From Hydrogenothermaceae bacterium (lineage in GTDB: Bacteria; Aquificota; Aquificia; Aquificales; Hydrogenothermaceae), in assembly GCA_012961365.1 (NCBI GenBank), contig DTZN01000245.1, positions 1-14,182 on the forward strand: 14,182 bases of DNA, read 5' to 3'. The notes under the pieces are model-generated. The model was not told the origin of the DNA. It saw only the letters and a program-made list of their open reading frames with translations, and made no database searches. Shown piece by piece: positions 6,107 through 14,182 of the stretch (positions are counted from its first letter, which is position 1; each line of letters opens with the position of its first letter). The position numbers and the translations under genes were made by a program.

Positions 6107-6430
6107 TTACTTTCCAAAACCAGACTGAATTGCTTCTATAGTAGCTTGTTTTTTTGATCTAGATTTTGATTTTATAGTAGGAGCCTTTATGTAATTTGAT
6201 GGTGGATTATACGATGGGTTAATATAGTTCGGAGCGTTTATAGGATTGGCTTTATAGTAATTAGGAACAACATCTGGATATTTAGCTTTTATGTAATTAG
6301 GAGAATTTTTGGGATTTGCTTTGTAATAAACAGCTTTTCTTGGAGTTATAAACAATTTATTTTTATTTAAAAAATAATATACAACCCCCACTAAGCTAAT
6401 AATTAAGGCTAAACTTATTATTAACTTCAT
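6107..6430 (-). CDS. Small membrane-anchored protein with Tyr/Asn/Pro repeats, function unknown
   Basis: A protein of 107 residues that I do not recognise. Residues 1-20 form one hydrophobic segment (signal anchor or uncleaved signal peptide), with a basic stretch following. Residues 35-85 carry imperfect repeats: YYKANP occurs at 35-40 and 58-63, exactly 23 residues apart, each followed four residues later by PNYI (44-47 and 67-70), with a third partial copy SNYI at 78-81. The C terminus is Lys/Ser-rich (86-95) and ends in GFGK. The most likely arrangement is a membrane anchor with an extended, low-complexity periplasmic tail. It lies 12 bases after the stop of the CNNM-family gene on the same strand, so it is probably the last gene of that operon. 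No clear ribosome binding site is seen. The repeats argue for a real coding region rather than chance. Confidence 0.65.
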   Translation of the reverse strand: MKLIISLALIISLVGVVYYFLNKNKLFITPRKAVYYKANPKNSPNYIKAKYPDVVPNYYKANPINAPNYINPSYNPPSNYIKAPTIKSKSRSKKQATIEAIQSGFGK

Positions 6431-8967: not shown

Positions 8968-9919
8968 AGTGGCAATACACCTCCTGATTTTTTAAGATTT
9001 TAACGGTAGGCTTTTGCTTACAAATATCTTCTGCATAAGGGCATCTATGATAAAAAACGCAAGCTCCTTTTATATCTTCTCTAGAAACTTCTGGAATTTC
9101 CTTAAAATTTTTCCTTTGTTTTGGAGATTTTGGCGGAATGCTTGCAATAAGAAGCTTTGTATAAGGATGTTTAGGGCTTTTTAAAACTGATTTTTTATCT
9201 CCTTTTTCCACTATTTCTCCTCTGTATAAAACAACCACATAATCACATAAAATTCCAACTAAATTTATATCGTGGGAAATAAATAAAAATGCTATATTTT
9301 TTTCTTCTTTTAATTTTTTAATTAGGTTTACTATTTGAAGTTGAATACTAACATCTAAAGCAGAAGTAGGTTCATCTGCAACTATAAATTTAGGAGATAA
9401 AACTATAGCTCTGGCTATTGCAACTCTTTGTCTTTGTCCTCCTGAAAGTTCTGAAGGATATTTTTCTAAAAATGTTGTATCCAATCCTGCATCTATTATT
9501 GCTTTTTCTACAAGTTGTTTTCTTTCTTTTTTTGGAAAATTATGCACTACTAAAGGTTCTTCTACTATATCTTTTATTTTCCATCTTGGATTTAATGAAG
9601 TTCTCGGGTCTTGAAAAATTATTGAAGTTTCTCTTCTAAAGATTTTTTCTTCTTCTTTTGTAAAACTATAAATATCCTTCCCATCAAATAAAATTTGCCC
9701 TGCATCTTTTTGTATAAGCTTTAAAACTAACCTTCCTATTGTTGATTTTCCACTTCCAGACTCTCCAACAAGTCCAACAATTGAAGATTTTTGAAGATTA
9801 AAAGATACGTTATTTACTGCATAAAAATACTCTTTGTTAAACAAAGACTTTCTAATAAGATATTTTTTTGACAAACCTCTTATCTGGACAAGTGGCGGGG
9901 GTTTACTATCGTTTTCCAT
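8960..9919 (-). CDS. Oligopeptide/dipeptide ABC transporter ATP-binding protein (OppF/DppF-like)
   Basis: Cytoplasmic ATPase subunit of a peptide- or nickel-type ABC importer, 319 residues, normal for the family. Visible motifs: Walker A GESGSGKST at 52-60, Q-loop IFQDPRTSLNPRW at 101-113, signature LSGGQRQR at 158-165, Walker B FIVADEPTSALD at 178-189 and switch His216. The C terminus has the oligo_HPY block HPYTKLLIASIP at 251-262 and four cysteines (287, 293, 300, 317), a pattern found in this subfamily and linked, as I recall, to an iron-sulfur cluster in a mycobacterial DppD. No permease, binding protein or partner ATPase gene lies in the window; the downstream genes are CNNM-family proteins. 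No good ribosome binding site precedes the ATG (AAGGA is 18 bases away). A promoter candidate lies at 9981-10008. The substrate cannot be told. Confidence 0.93.
   Translation of the reverse strand: MENDSKPPPLVQIRGLSKKYLIRKSLFNKEYFYAVNNVSFNLQKSSIVGLVGESGSGKSTIGRLVLKLIQKDAGQILFDGKDIYSFTKEEEKIFRRETSIIFQDPRTSLNPRWKIKDIVEEPLVVHNFPKKERKQLVEKAIIDAGLDTTFLEKYPSELSGGQRQRVAIARAIVLSPKFIVADEPTSALDVSIQLQIVNLIKKLKEEKNIAFLFISHDINLVGILCDYVVVLYRGEIVEKGDKKSVLKSPKHPYTKLLIASIPPKSPKQRKNFKEIPEVSREDIKGACVFYHRCPYAEDICKQKPTVKILKNQEVYCHFV
8980..8985 (-). promoter_or_regulatory. Ribosome binding site of CNNM copy 1, inside the ATPase gene
   Basis: On the - strand this is AGGAGG, the strongest such match in the operon. 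It lies 12 bases from the TTG at 8967 and 3 bases from the in-frame ATT at 8976, neither an ideal spacing, so it limits the start to one of these two. Confidence 0.6.
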
Positions 9920-9980
9920 TGGTTGAATGAAAGTTATTCCTTAAACTTCCTCTTCTGGTTTTAGATTTTTCATAGGAAAT

Positions 9981-10008
9981 ATTTTATCATTTAAGTTGCT
10001 TTTTTCAA
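9981..10008 (-). promoter_or_regulatory. Sigma70-type promoter candidate for the ABC ATPase / CNNM operon
   Basis: On the - strand, TTGAAA (10003-10008) and TAAAAT (9981-9986) are separated by 16 bases. This would start transcription near 9974 and give a leader of about 55 bases before the ATG at 9919. The pair matches the -35 and -10 consensus at 4 of 6 and 5 of 6 positions. It lies in the 127-base gap between divergent genes. Confidence 0.45.
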
Positions 10009-10024
10009 TGTTAGAATATAGAAA
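9996..10024 (+). promoter_or_regulatory. Weak promoter candidate for the cysteine desulfurase gene
   Basis: TTGCTT (9996-10001) and TAGAAA (10019-10024) are 17 bases apart and would start transcription about 16 bases before the ATG at 10047. Both hexamers are poor matches. The site overlaps the opposing promoter candidate, so the two genes could compete for RNA polymerase. A ribosome binding site AAGGTGA follows at 10036-10042. Confidence 0.25.
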
Positions 10025-10046
10025 AATTTTCATTTAAGGTGATTAA

Positions 10047-11174
10047 ATGGATATTTATTTAGATAACGCTTCAACAACTCCTGTATTTGAAGAAGTTATA
10101 AAACAATTACCTGTCTGGACTAGAAATTTTTATGCTAATCCAAACTCTATACATAAATTAGGTCAAAAGGTTAAAAATGAAATAGAAAAGGTAAGACAAA
10201 ATATTGCAAATATAATAAATGAGTCTACGGAAAATATAATATTTACCTCTGGAGCAACAGAATCTAATAACACAATAATAAAAGGGTATATAGAAAAAAC
10301 AAAAAAAAGAGAAATTTTAATATCTTCTATAGAACATAAATCTGTCTTAAATGTAGCAAAATATTTAGCAAAAAAAGGGATTAAAATAAAATTTCTTAAA
10401 GTAGATGAAAATGGAAAAATAGATTTAGATTATCTAAAAAAAAGCTTATCTAAAGAAACAGCTTTAGCTTGTATTATACATACAAATAATGAGACTGGAG
10501 TAAAGCAAGATATAAAAGAAATTTCCAAAATTTTGAAGGAACATGAAATTCCTTTATTCTCTGATACAGTTCAATCGTTTATAAAAGAAGATATAGATTT
10601 TCAAGATATAGATTTTTATAGTGTTTCTGGACATAAAATAAATTCCATAAAAGGTATAGGGCTACTTGTAAAGAAAAAAGATTTATCTCCTCTTATTCAT
10701 GGTGGGGGTCAAGAAAATGGATTTAGAAGTGGAACTCAAAATGTAATAGGAATACTTGCTATAGGCAAGGCTATTGAAATTTGGGATAAAAATAAAGAAG
10801 AATACAAAAAAAATTTAAAACAATTAAAAGAAACTTTTGAAACAAGAATAAAAGAGGAAATACCTGATATAAAAATTGTAAGTGAAAAAGTAGAAAGAGC
10901 AAACAGCATAAGTTGTTTAATCTTTCCTAAAGTTGATGCCCAAAGTTTAGTTATTTCTTTAGGTAGACAAGGAGTATATTTATCATCTGGTTCTGCTTGT
11001 TCTTCAGGAACTCCAACTCCTTCCCATGTATTATTAGCCTATGGATACTCAGAAGAAGAAGCTTTAAAAGCTATCAGAGTTTCTTTTGGGGTTTTTAATT
11101 CTTTGGAAGAAGTTGAAGAATCAGTTTTGAAAATAAAGAAATCTTTTGAAAAAATTTATAAATTTTCTTTCTAA
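10047..11174 (+). CDS. Cysteine desulfurase (NifS/IscS family)
   Basis: Pyridoxal-phosphate enzyme of 375 residues that removes sulfur from L-cysteine to give alanine and an enzyme persulfide for Fe-S cluster or thiolation pathways. Evidence: N-terminal YLDNASTTP at 4-12, TSGATESNN at 67-75, His98 that stacks on the cofactor, SDTVQ at 172-176 (Asp173 and Gln176 hold the pyridine ring), SGHK at 194-197 with the cofactor lysine Lys197, the phosphate-binding GGGQENGFRSGT at 219-230, and the catalytic loop SSGSACSSGTPTPSHVL at 313-329 with active Cys318. This long loop is the class I form. The ATG has AAGGTGA 4 bases upstream. No IscU, IscR or thiolase partner lies beside it, so the acceptor is unknown. 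The stop overlaps the stop of an opposing small gene by 4 bases. Confidence 0.95.
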   Translation: MDIYLDNASTTPVFEEVIKQLPVWTRNFYANPNSIHKLGQKVKNEIEKVRQNIANIINESTENIIFTSGATESNNTIIKGYIEKTKKREILISSIEHKSVLNVAKYLAKKGIKIKFLKVDENGKIDLDYLKKSLSKETALACIIHTNNETGVKQDIKEISKILKEHEIPLFSDTVQSFIKEDIDFQDIDFYSVSGHKINSIKGIGLLVKKKDLSPLIHGGGQENGFRSGTQNVIGILAIGKAIEIWDKNKEEYKKNLKQLKETFETRIKEEIPDIKIVSEKVERANSISCLIFPKVDAQSLVISLGRQGVYLSSGSACSSGTPTPSHVLLAYGYSEEEALKAIRVSFGVFNSLEEVEESVLKIKKSFEKIYKFSF

Positions 11175-11469: not shown

Positions 11470-12063
11470 ATGATTTTATCAATAGATACTTTTTCAGATA
11501 TTTTAGGAATATGTTTATTAGATAAAGATAAAAATATAAAATTTTGCGTTGAATATAGACAATATAAACCATTTTCAGAAACAATTATTTATGAACTAGA
11601 TTTATTACTAAAAAAGTTTGAAATATCTAAAAAAGAAATAACTTCAGTTGTTATAAATAAAGGTCCCGGTGGATATACAGGGCTTAGAGTTGGAATAACT
11701 ACAGCTAAAATTTTAGCTTATGCTTTAAATATTCCTTTATATGCTTATACTTCTCTTGATGCAATGTGTTATTCATATAAAAGTTGTAATGTTAAAATCT
11801 TAACTGCCATAAATGCTGGAAAAAATGAAGCTTATGTAAAAACTTTTGAGAAAAATAAAGCCTCAGAAATCTTTTTAATGAAACAAAAAAAATTAGAAGA
11901 ATATATTAAAAACTATGATATTTGTATAGTTAAAAATCTAAATTTTGAAAACTGTATACAAATAAAAGATTCTCTAGCTATAAATGGTGCTTTATTAGCA
12001 ATTCAAGAAAATTTAATAGGAAATCCTTTCCAGCTAGAACCTATATATATAAGAACTAATTAA
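11470..12063 (+). CDS. tsaB: tRNA threonylcarbamoyladenosine biosynthesis protein TsaB
   Basis: TsaB (YeaZ) is the inactive paralogue of TsaD that joins TsaD and TsaE in making the t6A modification at position 37 of ANN-decoding tRNAs in the cytoplasm. The 197-residue length is at the short end of the usual range. The N terminus ILSIDTFSD (2-10) is the ASKHA-fold start, and GPGGYTGLRVGI at 65-76 is the most characteristic TsaB signature (usually GPGSFTGLRVG). The stretch INAGKNEAYV near 104-113 corresponds to the family's DARR/N-x-EVY region. No clear ribosome binding site is seen before the ATG. TsaD and TsaE genes are not in the window. The last 8 bases overlap the end of the opposing symporter gene. 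Confidence 0.9.
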   Translation: MILSIDTFSDILGICLLDKDKNIKFCVEYRQYKPFSETIIYELDLLLKKFEISKKEITSVVINKGPGGYTGLRVGITTAKILAYALNIPLYAYTSLDAMCYSYKSCNVKILTAINAGKNEAYVKTFEKNKASEIFLMKQKKLEEYIKNYDICIVKNLNFENCIQIKDSLAINGALLAIQENLIGNPFQLEPIYIRTN

Positions 12064-13243
12064 TATATCTGCTTATTAATTTTGCCCCTATTAAATCTCC
12101 CCAAACATTAGTTGCTGTTCTAAACATATCTAAAAATCTATCAACTACAATTATAAGACTTATACCTTCTATAGGTATACCTACAGTAGAAAAAATAAGT
12201 GTCATTGTTATTAATCCTGCACTAGGTATTGCAGCTGCGCCTATAGAAGCAAGTGTAGCAGTTATAAAAATAAGTATTTCATCTGTAAATGTTAAATCTA
12301 TTCCATAAACATTAGCAATAAATATTGATGCAATAGCTGTGTAAAGAGCAGTTCCATCCATATTTATAGTTGCACCAAGAGGAAGAATAAAACCAGCAAC
12401 TTTTTTAGGAATACCCACTTCTTTTTCTGCTACTTCTATAGAAACTGGTAGTGTTGCAGAGCTAGAACAAGTGGAAAACGCAATAAGTAAAGCTTTTCTA
12501 ACTTGTTTAAAATATTTAACAGGATTAAATTTGCCTATAAAGTAAGCAAGAGATGGAAGGTTTACTGTAAAATGCCAAAATATACCTATTAAAACAACAA
12601 GAACATACTGCCATAAAGATAAAATTGTTCCAAACCCTTTTTCAGCAACAACATAACCTATCAAAGAATAAACACCAATAGGTGATAAAGCAACTATCCA
12701 TTTTGCCATTTTTAAAAATGCATCATTAAGTCCATCAAAAAAATCAACAATAAGTTTTCTTTTTAATGATGATTGTATATATAAAACACCTGTAGAAAAT
12801 AAAATAGCAAAAACAATAGCATGTAAAGCTTTACCCTCCGCTAAACTTTGAAAAATATTAGATGGGATTATATTTTGAATAAAAGTTTCTAGTGTTAGCT
12901 TTGATAAGTTGTTAACTTCTTGAGAAGGATTTATATGAGAAAGAGAAAAAGGAAAAATATTTACAACAATAATGCCTGTAATTACAGCTAAAGAAGTTGT
13001 TGTTAAATAATATAAAAATGCTTTTATCCCAATATTTTTTAGTTCTTCTACAGAAGAAAGCTTAGAAATAGCAATAAAAATAGACACAAAGATTAAAGGT
13101 ATGACTATCATTTTTAAAAGATTTAAAAATATATCTCCTAAAAATTTTATAGATGTAGCAAATTCAGGAAAATAAACCCCTGTAAGCACACCTAGAATTA
13201 TTCCTAAAAACGTTAAATTTTCTATGGACAAAAGTTTTTTCAT
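12056..13243 (-). CDS. Cation-coupled acidic amino acid / dicarboxylate symporter (GltP-like)
   Basis: Integral membrane carrier of the SDF family (DAACS, TC 2.A.23), 395 residues, importing glutamate, aspartate or C4-dicarboxylates with Na+ or H+. Evidence: many hydrophobic segments; the Ser-rich hairpin CSSSATLP at 259-266; the cation-site NMDGTA at 294-299; the second hairpin with GAAAIPSAG at 335-343; and DRFLDMFRTATNVWGD at 368-383. By comparison with archaeal GltPh, Asp368, Asp372, Arg375, Thr376, Asn379 and Asp383 line up with the residues that bind substrate and Na+. The DMxRT...GD form is closer to glutamate/aspartate carriers than to DctA, which usually has SxCRA...GN. AGGAG at 13247-13251 precedes the ATG by only 3 bases. 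It lies downstream of mtnD on the same strand, 98 bases apart. Confidence 0.93.
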   Translation of the reverse strand: MKKLLSIENLTFLGIILGVLTGVYFPEFATSIKFLGDIFLNLLKMIVIPLIFVSIFIAISKLSSVEELKNIGIKAFLYYLTTTSLAVITGIIVVNIFPFSLSHINPSQEVNNLSKLTLETFIQNIIPSNIFQSLAEGKALHAIVFAILFSTGVLYIQSSLKRKLIVDFFDGLNDAFLKMAKWIVALSPIGVYSLIGYVVAEKGFGTILSLWQYVLVVLIGIFWHFTVNLPSLAYFIGKFNPVKYFKQVRKALLIAFSTCSSSATLPVSIEVAEKEVGIPKKVAGFILPLGATINMDGTALYTAIASIFIANVYGIDLTFTDEILIFITATLASIGAAAIPSAGLITMTLIFSTVGIPIEGISLIIVVDRFLDMFRTATNVWGDLIGAKLISRYIN

Positions 13244-13341: not shown

Positions 13342-13881
13342 TTAATCTTCCATGGTTTCTTTACATTCCTCATCGTATATAGCTTCCCAGCCTGCTGGAG
13401 TTTTAAATACCCTTATACATTTAATTTTTCTGTTTTCGTCTAACTCAAACCAATGTCTAGTTCCTGCAGGTACAACTATTAAATCTCCAGCCTCAACCCA
13501 AACCTCTACAACTTCTCCATCTAACTTTAATGGAAAAACTCCACTACCATCTACAACAAAACGAACTTCATCGTCAACATGATGATGTTCCTTTTTAAAC
13601 TTTTCTAAAAGGGCCTCTAAGTTTGGAGTTTTATCTGACAAAACAACTATATCTTCTGTTATATATCCTTTTTCTTTCTTCAATTTCTCAAGTTCTTCTT
13701 GGTAAGCATCTATTATAGCTTGTTGTTCCTCTTCTGTGAGTTCATAGTTCTCAACTAGATGCTCAGGTAATCTATCAACTCCCCATCTATCATACAAAAC
13801 TCCATACTTAGCTAAGAAACTTTTTATTTCATCTGGATTTTCCATAACCTTTCCACTATTTTTAAAAACTAATTTAGGCAT
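13342..13881 (-). CDS. mtnD: Acireductone dioxygenase
   Basis: Cupin-fold metalloenzyme of the methionine salvage pathway. It oxidises 1,2-dihydroxy-5-methylthiopentene to 2-keto-4-methylthiobutyrate and formate with Fe2+; the Ni2+ or Co2+ form makes an off-pathway product. The protein has 179 residues, the normal length. The metal ligands His99, His101, Glu105 and His143 show exactly the H-x-H-x3-E-x37-H spacing of the Klebsiella enzyme, and PAGTRHWFEL at 138-147 is the second cupin motif. A helical region (45-72) lies before the cupin as in family members. CGGAGGT with 7-base spacing supports the ATG at 13881. No other salvage gene is in the window. The gene is the last one before the DnaA-box region and is transcribed away from it. 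Confidence 0.95.
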   Translation of the reverse strand: MPKLVFKNSGKVMENPDEIKSFLAKYGVLYDRWGVDRLPEHLVENYELTEEEQQAIIDAYQEELEKLKKEKGYITEDIVVLSDKTPNLEALLEKFKKEHHHVDDEVRFVVDGSGVFPLKLDGEVVEVWVEAGDLIVVPAGTRHWFELDENRKIKCIRVFKTPAGWEAIYDEECKETMED

Positions 13882-13946: not shown

Positions 13947-13988
13947 TTATCCACAGGTTATCCACAAGTTATCCACAAGTTATCCACA
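13947..13988 (+). repeat. DnaA-box array 1: four tandem boxes with 11-base period
   Basis: Four exact TTATCCACA copies start at 13947, 13958, 13969 and 13980, separated by 2-base linkers GG, AG and AG. The 11-base step is about one DNA helix turn, so bound DnaA monomers would stack on one face. The array is followed by ACCT. Confidence 0.93.
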
Positions 13989-14046
13989 ACCTGAAAATCT
14001 GCTCTAAATATTGATAGATAAAGCTTTAATTGAATTTTTAATAAAG
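13989..14046. other. AT-rich spacer, candidate DNA unwinding element
   Basis: Between array 1 and the central boxes, 14005-14046 holds only 6 G or C in 42 bases. It contains no box and no gene. In oriC regions the helix opens in such an element next to a DnaA-box array. I see no clear run of DnaA-trio triplets in it, so the true unwinding element may instead lie past the right edge of the window. Confidence 0.4.
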
Positions 14047-14102
14047 TTATCCATATAGTTATCCACAATCCTTGTGGATAATTCCCAAAAATATGTGGAT
14101 AA
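14047..14102. repeat. Central DnaA boxes in opposed orientation
   Basis: Two forward boxes (variant TTATCCATA at 14047-14055 and exact at 14059-14067) face two reverse boxes (14073-14081 and 14094-14102). The inner pair forms a perfect inverted repeat at 14059-14081: 10-base arms around a 3-base centre. Confidence 0.85.
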
Positions 14103-14121
14103 GTAGCCAATAAATACAGAG

Positions 14122-14174
14122 TTATCCACAGGTTATCCACAAGTTATCTACAAGTTATCCACAAGTTATCCACA
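14122..14174 (+). repeat. DnaA-box array 2: five tandem boxes with 11-base period
   Basis: Boxes start at 14122, 14133, 14144 (variant TTATCTACA), 14155 and 14166, with linkers GG, AG, AG and AG. The linker order and the following ACCT match array 1, so the arrays look like copies of one unit that differ by one box. Confidence 0.93.
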
Positions 14175-14182
14175 ACCTAGAA

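Follow-up and report, generated by a model that had tools for sequence, protein, structure and literature searches.

At the end of the window, by which we mean the whole stretch of 14,182 bases analysed here, positions 13947-14174 very probably form the DnaA-binding part of a chromosomal replication origin (oriC) that is cut off by the contig end. These 228 bases contain eleven exact copies of the DnaA box TTATCCACA and two one-base variants and lie in none of the ORFs of 80 aa and above that were considered. Our recount agrees with the initial annotation, which had read the stretch as a non-coding box cluster and a probable oriC. This reading is supported by the boxes and their spacing, by conservation of the cluster at one place per genome, by trio repeats and a weak duplex beside it, and by strand asymmetry in two relatives. 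All of contig C245 is covered by the window; the draft genome to which it belongs (G000) has 1,648,734 bases in 315 contigs and is 93.68% complete with 6.8% contamination. As the closest mtnD relatives among named records belong mostly to Hydrogenothermaceae or to other Aquificota, we take this genome to be probably a member of the Hydrogenothermaceae.

Table 1. Features of the box cluster, its neighbours and the candidate second half (window positions unless a contig is named)
Feature	Position	Strand	Description
Sodium:dicarboxylate symporter gene	12056..13243	-	neighbour
mtnD (acireductone dioxygenase, ARD/ARD' family)	13342..13881	-	neighbour, outside the origin; gene start at 13881
Array A	13947..13988	+	four exact DnaA boxes (13947, 13958, 13969, 13980), head to tail, 11 bp start to start, 2-bp gaps
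Middle part	14047..14102	both	variant box TTATCCATA at 14047 (+), exact box at 14059 (+), exact boxes at 14073 and 14094 (-)
Array B	14122..14174	+	five boxes in 11-bp steps: exact at 14122, 14133, 14155 and 14166, variant TTATCTACA at 14144
Contig end	14175..14182	.	8 bases after the last box; cluster cut off here
Candidate missing unwinding half	C228:12874-12974 (L206)		from comparison with G067 (L010)

Nine of the eleven exact boxes lie on the plus strand and two on the minus strand, the latter spaced by 21 bp (Table 1). A search of all 14,182 bases found no exact copy outside the cluster. The earlier remark that none was noticed in the rest of the window thus holds for exact copies; four one-mismatch copies (at 1505, 4708, 5769 and 11376) had gone unmentioned. 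Allowing up to one mismatch, the window has 17 copies compared to a mean of 4.01 and a maximum of 13 in 200 shuffles. The count of thirteen boxes likewise stands within the window, while as a total it is a lower bound, with one more box on a second contig whose link to this one we infer from homology. The neighbours, previously named as mtnD and an acidic amino acid symporter, are matched by the ARD/ARD' and sodium:dicarboxylate symporter families. Elsewhere in the window, a 107-aa ORF at 6107-6430 (minus strand) shows repeated YYKANP/NAPNYI-like units without a Pfam match.

The pair TTATCCACA-NN-TTATCCACA, with at most one mismatch, occurs in the window's genome only at this cluster. Among the 112 genomes of the order, many of which are drafts, a fact that bears on the count of places per genome, the exact pair was found in 33, at a single place in each, and the reversed control gave no match in any of the 112. 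A pattern with a 6-base gap had been tried and gave no match because the true gap between boxes is 2 bases. A looser pair, with a gap of 1-30, is present in 29 of the 41 genomes of the family, covering all ten genera, and in 20 of its 23 good genomes (at least 90% complete, at most 5% contaminated). We counted against an origin the 79 of 112 genomes of the order in which the strict pair was not found, the 12 of 41 family genomes (three of them good) in which the looser pair was not found, and an extra single looser pair away from the cluster in G075, among the matches listed. In 23 loci of the family, window included, we counted 267 exact boxes (mean 11.6), with same-strand steps mostly of 11 bp (67), 21 bp (33), 12 bp (18), 54 bp (16) and 22 bp (12), and the opposed boxes of the middle part are seen again in relatives.

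Another family of the order (L020-L028) also has box clusters, of 5 to 14 boxes when one mismatch is allowed, and a strict TAA/TAG trio repeat was found in none of the nine. Two single-contig chromosomes of genus g9 (G099:C1 and G097:C1) are without a dense box cluster by the pair patterns, with one loose pair at 493,604 in G099 and none in G097. In G068 (L070, about 9756-10191) a block of four boxes and its intervening sequence is present twice, as if a module had been duplicated. Sites resembling parS, tried as an independent origin marker, were found in none of 41 genomes at up to one mismatch.

One flank of the relatives' clusters consists of T-rich and AT-rich DNA and then repeats such as TAATAATAATAATAG, followed by TGTGGATAA, from which they are separated by 1-3 bases or by a further degenerate box. 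The strict repeat pattern is seen in 9 of the 21 loci listed, with interrupted repeats in the remainder. An exact junction, TAATAATAG-N(1-3)-TGTGGATA, occurs in 15 of 41 genomes, in one copy each and always at the box cluster (15/15); the reversed pattern, run as a control over the same 41 genomes, gave none. In the accessible part of PMC8287927, the rule for calling a basal unwinding system (BUS) asks for three or more NAN trios no farther than 16 bp from a box. By this rule, which is loose in AT-rich DNA and less strict than the junction pattern, trios are present in all 23 loci considered (22 of relatives and a second contig, C228, of the window's own genome), with 2 to 7 TAA/TAG trios per locus and the fewest, two, in G078. 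At all 23 loci, the weakest 60-bp duplex near the junction is also the least stable of the whole locus or falls among its weakest 0.1%. Judged by its sequence, this AT-rich DNA with TAA/TAG repeats beside the first box is an unwinding element with predicted DnaA-trios. The window ends too early to include it.

The corresponding half of the window's own origin probably lies on C228. In G067 (L010) the cluster sits between a histidine kinase gene and mtnD, and the place that corresponds to the window's contig end is followed by a trio-proximal box, trio repeats and an AT-rich unwinding element. The homologue of this kinase in the window's genome, 85% identical to it, is found on C228, where the kinase stop is followed by T-rich DNA, TAATAATAAAAATAATAA, a 12-base spacer and one exact box, after which the contig terminates within 12 bases. 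This AT-rich end has six NAN trios before the 12-bp spacer and probably represents the trio-proximal box, trio repeats and unwinding element missing from the window. By comparison with L010, we estimate the gap between C228 and C245 at about 37 bases. The last 19 bases of C228 are identical to window positions 14035-14053 in reverse orientation, and this repeat likely explains why the assembly broke there. Joined in this way, the complete origin would hold 12 exact and 2 variant boxes. Counted against this, the link between the two contigs is by homology, in a bin with 6.8% contamination.

Plain GC skew was dropped as an origin marker since its sign flips with gene direction in the window and since, in the sampled chromosome of G079, it is a mosaic without a clear turn, which we counted against the origin. 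The mosaic is consistent with PMC4070872, which in its accessible part describes alternating purine-rich and pyrimidine-rich stretches in Aquificae and lists P. marina among them. A corrected skew was obtained from third-position and fourfold-site skews by comparing genes of both directions, using 40 stretches of 20 kb from the long chromosome contig of G079 and as many from that of G082. Trial origins were set every 10 kb with the terminus placed opposite, a grid that is autocorrelated, so that ranks are not probabilities. In G079 (721 genes) the cluster tops all 194 trial origins in three of four measures, and none of 300 gene shuffles equals it; for the fourfold GC skew it ranks 28 of 194, with the maximum 847 kb off and 32 of 300 shuffles equal, a result against the origin. 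In G082 (729 genes) it ranks 10, 2, 7 and 3 of 192, with maxima 18-68 kb off and its value attained by 1, 0, 0 and 0 of 300 gene shuffles. The maximum thus falls at most 70 kb from the cluster in seven of the eight tests and 847 kb from it in one, and dnaA as trial origin ranks 109-186 over the eight. A half-sized sample gave a similar picture.

The gene-direction-corrected skew of two long relative chromosomes therefore favours the cluster and not dnaA. The initial annotation had named a skew turn elsewhere, together with a better cluster there, as the finding that would speak against an origin at this place; in G079 and G082 the maximum lies within 70 kb of the cluster in those seven tests. 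The single 372-kb contig G065:C11, from the window's own genus, was counted against it, the cluster ranking 66, 25, 19 and 10 of 75 and plain cumulative G-C showing a maximum near the cluster instead of a minimum.

A search for dnaA to the right of 14182, as had been suggested, leads elsewhere: the gene of this genome, whose product has both the ATPase and the box-binding domains, sits on contig C32, and in relatives it is 618 kb (G080), 725 kb (G082) and 861 kb (G079) from the cluster, or 46 kb in G065. In the 1.93-Mb chromosome of G079 (C2), with the cluster at about 6.7 kb and dnaA at 868 kb, this places dnaA near the opposite pole. The earlier remark that gene context would miss this origin is thereby borne out, since origin finding by context fails where dnaA is not beside the origin. 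No exact box was found at 19 of 21 dnaA loci (20 genomes) and one at the other two. The genes flanking the cluster vary even among the four genomes of the window's genus: the window and G067 have mtnD, G065 has secA and a class-III aminotransferase, and G068 has a thioredoxin-fold gene with dxr and a chemoreceptor. Outside this genus, we found pyrG in 3 of 3 of genus g3, folK no more than five genes away in 7 of 8 of genus g7, and ubiD with wzz in G079. The gene dxr is near the cluster in three genera (G068, G076 and G101) and may be an old neighbour of the origin. A gene read as mtnB adjoins dnaA on C32 (L019, 1205-3266). The genes mtnB and mtnD are adjacent in L009, L016, G079 and G082, and because of this adjacency in relatives we suggest that the two genes were separated in the lineage of the window, leaving mtnD at the origin.

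In both the window and L010, 66 bp separate mtnD from the cluster upstream of it, a position that would suit a DnaA-controlled mtnD promoter without a role in replication. This reading is already largely refuted and deserves hardly any credence, given that mtnD adjoins the cluster at these two of 24 loci only and that G079 and G082 keep the cluster though their mtnD stands elsewhere, beside mtnB. The differing flanks between and within genera could also look as if the block had moved, as might be expected of an origin belonging to a plasmid, a prophage or some other element inside the chromosome. We regard this as very improbable because the cluster occurs on chromosome-sized contigs (1.93 and 1.91 Mb) among ordinary metabolic neighbours, is present in 10 of 10 genera of the family and has no recombinase that we could see among the 28 flanking genes scanned.

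A further reading, which the initial annotation had named as far as titration is concerned, takes the cluster for a DnaA-titration or resetting site, similar to datA or DARS, that sets the timing of initiation while the true origin lies elsewhere. Like datA, a titration locus, the cluster is a group of DnaA boxes in an intergenic gap distant from dnaA; its consensus boxes are very numerous, and the skew test of G065 lends no support to an origin at this place. However, a second, better origin cluster would then be expected, whereas the strict pair gives one place in all 33 positive genomes and the dnaA loci have at most one exact box each. Trio repeats and a locus-weakest duplex would be unneeded at such a site and, together with the skew turn in relatives, distinguish the cluster from datA. 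Titration fits less well because the cluster is the sole one of its kind in nearly every relative and because trio repeats and a weak duplex are present, and with a skew peak at the cluster also unexpected we consider it improbable.

As part of an oriC, the cluster can be assigned a working in which DnaA binding, opening and helicase loading are what we infer from the arrangement of its sequence. DnaA would bind the box arrays, in which steps of 11 and 21 bp nearly match one and two turns of the helix, and form a head-to-tail filament. Starting at the box closest to the AT-rich DNA, this filament would extend onto the TAA/TAG trios of one strand and melt the T-rich tract, upon which the helicase could load. 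A second filament would probably be anchored, or DnaA kept in reserve, by the far array and the oppositely oriented boxes of the middle part.

Features of the E. coli oriC that recur here are TTATCCACA boxes in both orientations, of which some are separated by 2 bp, and an unwinding element on one side. Perfect boxes are scarce and weak ones numerous in E. coli, while 11 of the 13 boxes in the window are perfect. With the Bacillus subtilis-type BUS, as described in the accessible part of PMC8287927, the family origin shares a box, a spacer of at most 16 bp, at least three NAN trios and AT-rich DNA beyond; the spacer lengths reported there peak at 10-13 bp, a range that includes the 12 bp to the nearest consensus box on C228. 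Unlike the BUS of that description, the family origin is not beside dnaA, its predicted trios are nearly pure TAA, ending in TAG, and it has more exact consensus boxes than the BUS requires. The oriC of Thermotoga maritima, as far as the accessible part of PMC10316083 covers it, is likewise that of a thermophile with an AT-rich unwinding element with TAG/TAA beside the boxes. It has 5 boxes of consensus ACCTACCAC in 149 bp, compared to at least 13 E. coli-type boxes over about 400 bp here, and its annotated trio is only supportive, three TAG repeats being essential.

These results provide a concrete candidate origin for a family of deep-branching thermophiles whose plain GC skew reveals none. 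The trio-box junction, which in the 15 of 41 genomes that have it lies at the cluster and nowhere else, can locate origins even in broken drafts. We found no publication on a Hydrogenothermaceae origin in the literature searched, which did not extend to DoriC entries; DoriC likely holds an automatic origin prediction for P. marina. From its sequence, the origin itself appears to be of a known type, and what was unexpected are the changing neighbours, which open the question of how an origin stays intact amid reshuffled surroundings, and a second motif at fixed spacing.

A further likeness to E. coli oriC is an IHF-consensus motif in most of the relatives' origins. We counted 33 copies of this consensus, WATCAANNNNTTR, in 22 origin regions that total 9,748 bases, compared to a mean of 2.02 and a largest value of 9 in 200 shuffles of these regions and to 0.04-0.11 per kb in sampled genome DNA; the window has no exact copy. 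Refinement with the boxes masked, used because the unmasked version slid into the DnaA box, gave the motif WTCAANNACTTA, with 66 sites in 20 of 23 origins, a density that is partly circular as the matrix was trained on the same origins. Fourteen of these sites are spread over about 900 bp in G104 (L207, 8380-9290), and the motif also precedes boxes in L106 (G082) and L076 (G080). Among 49 sites with a box within 40 bp, the next same-strand TGTGGATAA follows at 4 bp in 26 and at 14 bp in 13. Motif and box at one of these two distances form a composite unit with 33 copies in 16 of 23 genomes and none in 1,912,577 background bases of three relatives; the fixed gap and the background zero are less circular, with the gap lengths still picked from the earlier WATCAANNNNTTR scan. 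In the other family of the order, 4 of 9 clusters have WTCAANNACTTA alone and none has the composite unit. By eye, the motif could be taken for a degenerate DnaA box (TTATTGATA), a less likely reading that was set aside since the distance from its start to the next box would be 17 or 27 bp in place of 11 or 21 bp, and since one of its T positions is variable.

The motif WTCAANNACTTA was not found in the window, and the composite unit is absent from the window, C228, G067 and G065, with one copy in G068 of the same genus. We tentatively propose, as a possibility that we would not yet call probable, that origins of this family are built from composite units in which the IHF-like WTCAANNACTTA precedes a box by exactly 4 or 14 bp, two distances that differ by one helical turn. 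Such units might be bound by a bender of the HU/IHF type, the phylum being reported to be without true IHF, or by DnaA in another mode, and would fold the orisome. The unit would have been lost in the window's sublineage and replaced by tandem arrays of perfect boxes, and the origin would be a compact block whose internal layout persists as the genes around it, dnaA among them, vary. The fixed spacing opens the question of how origins are bent or organised in bacteria said to lack IHF. The window's genome encodes one 91-aa HU/IHF-type protein (G000:C275), which falls short of the cut-off of every HU and IHF model. A diverged second HU/IHF-type protein is found in L230 (G000:C72, 1219-2803), partly overlapping an adjoining ORF that, in our own reading, resembles an IS110-type transposase.
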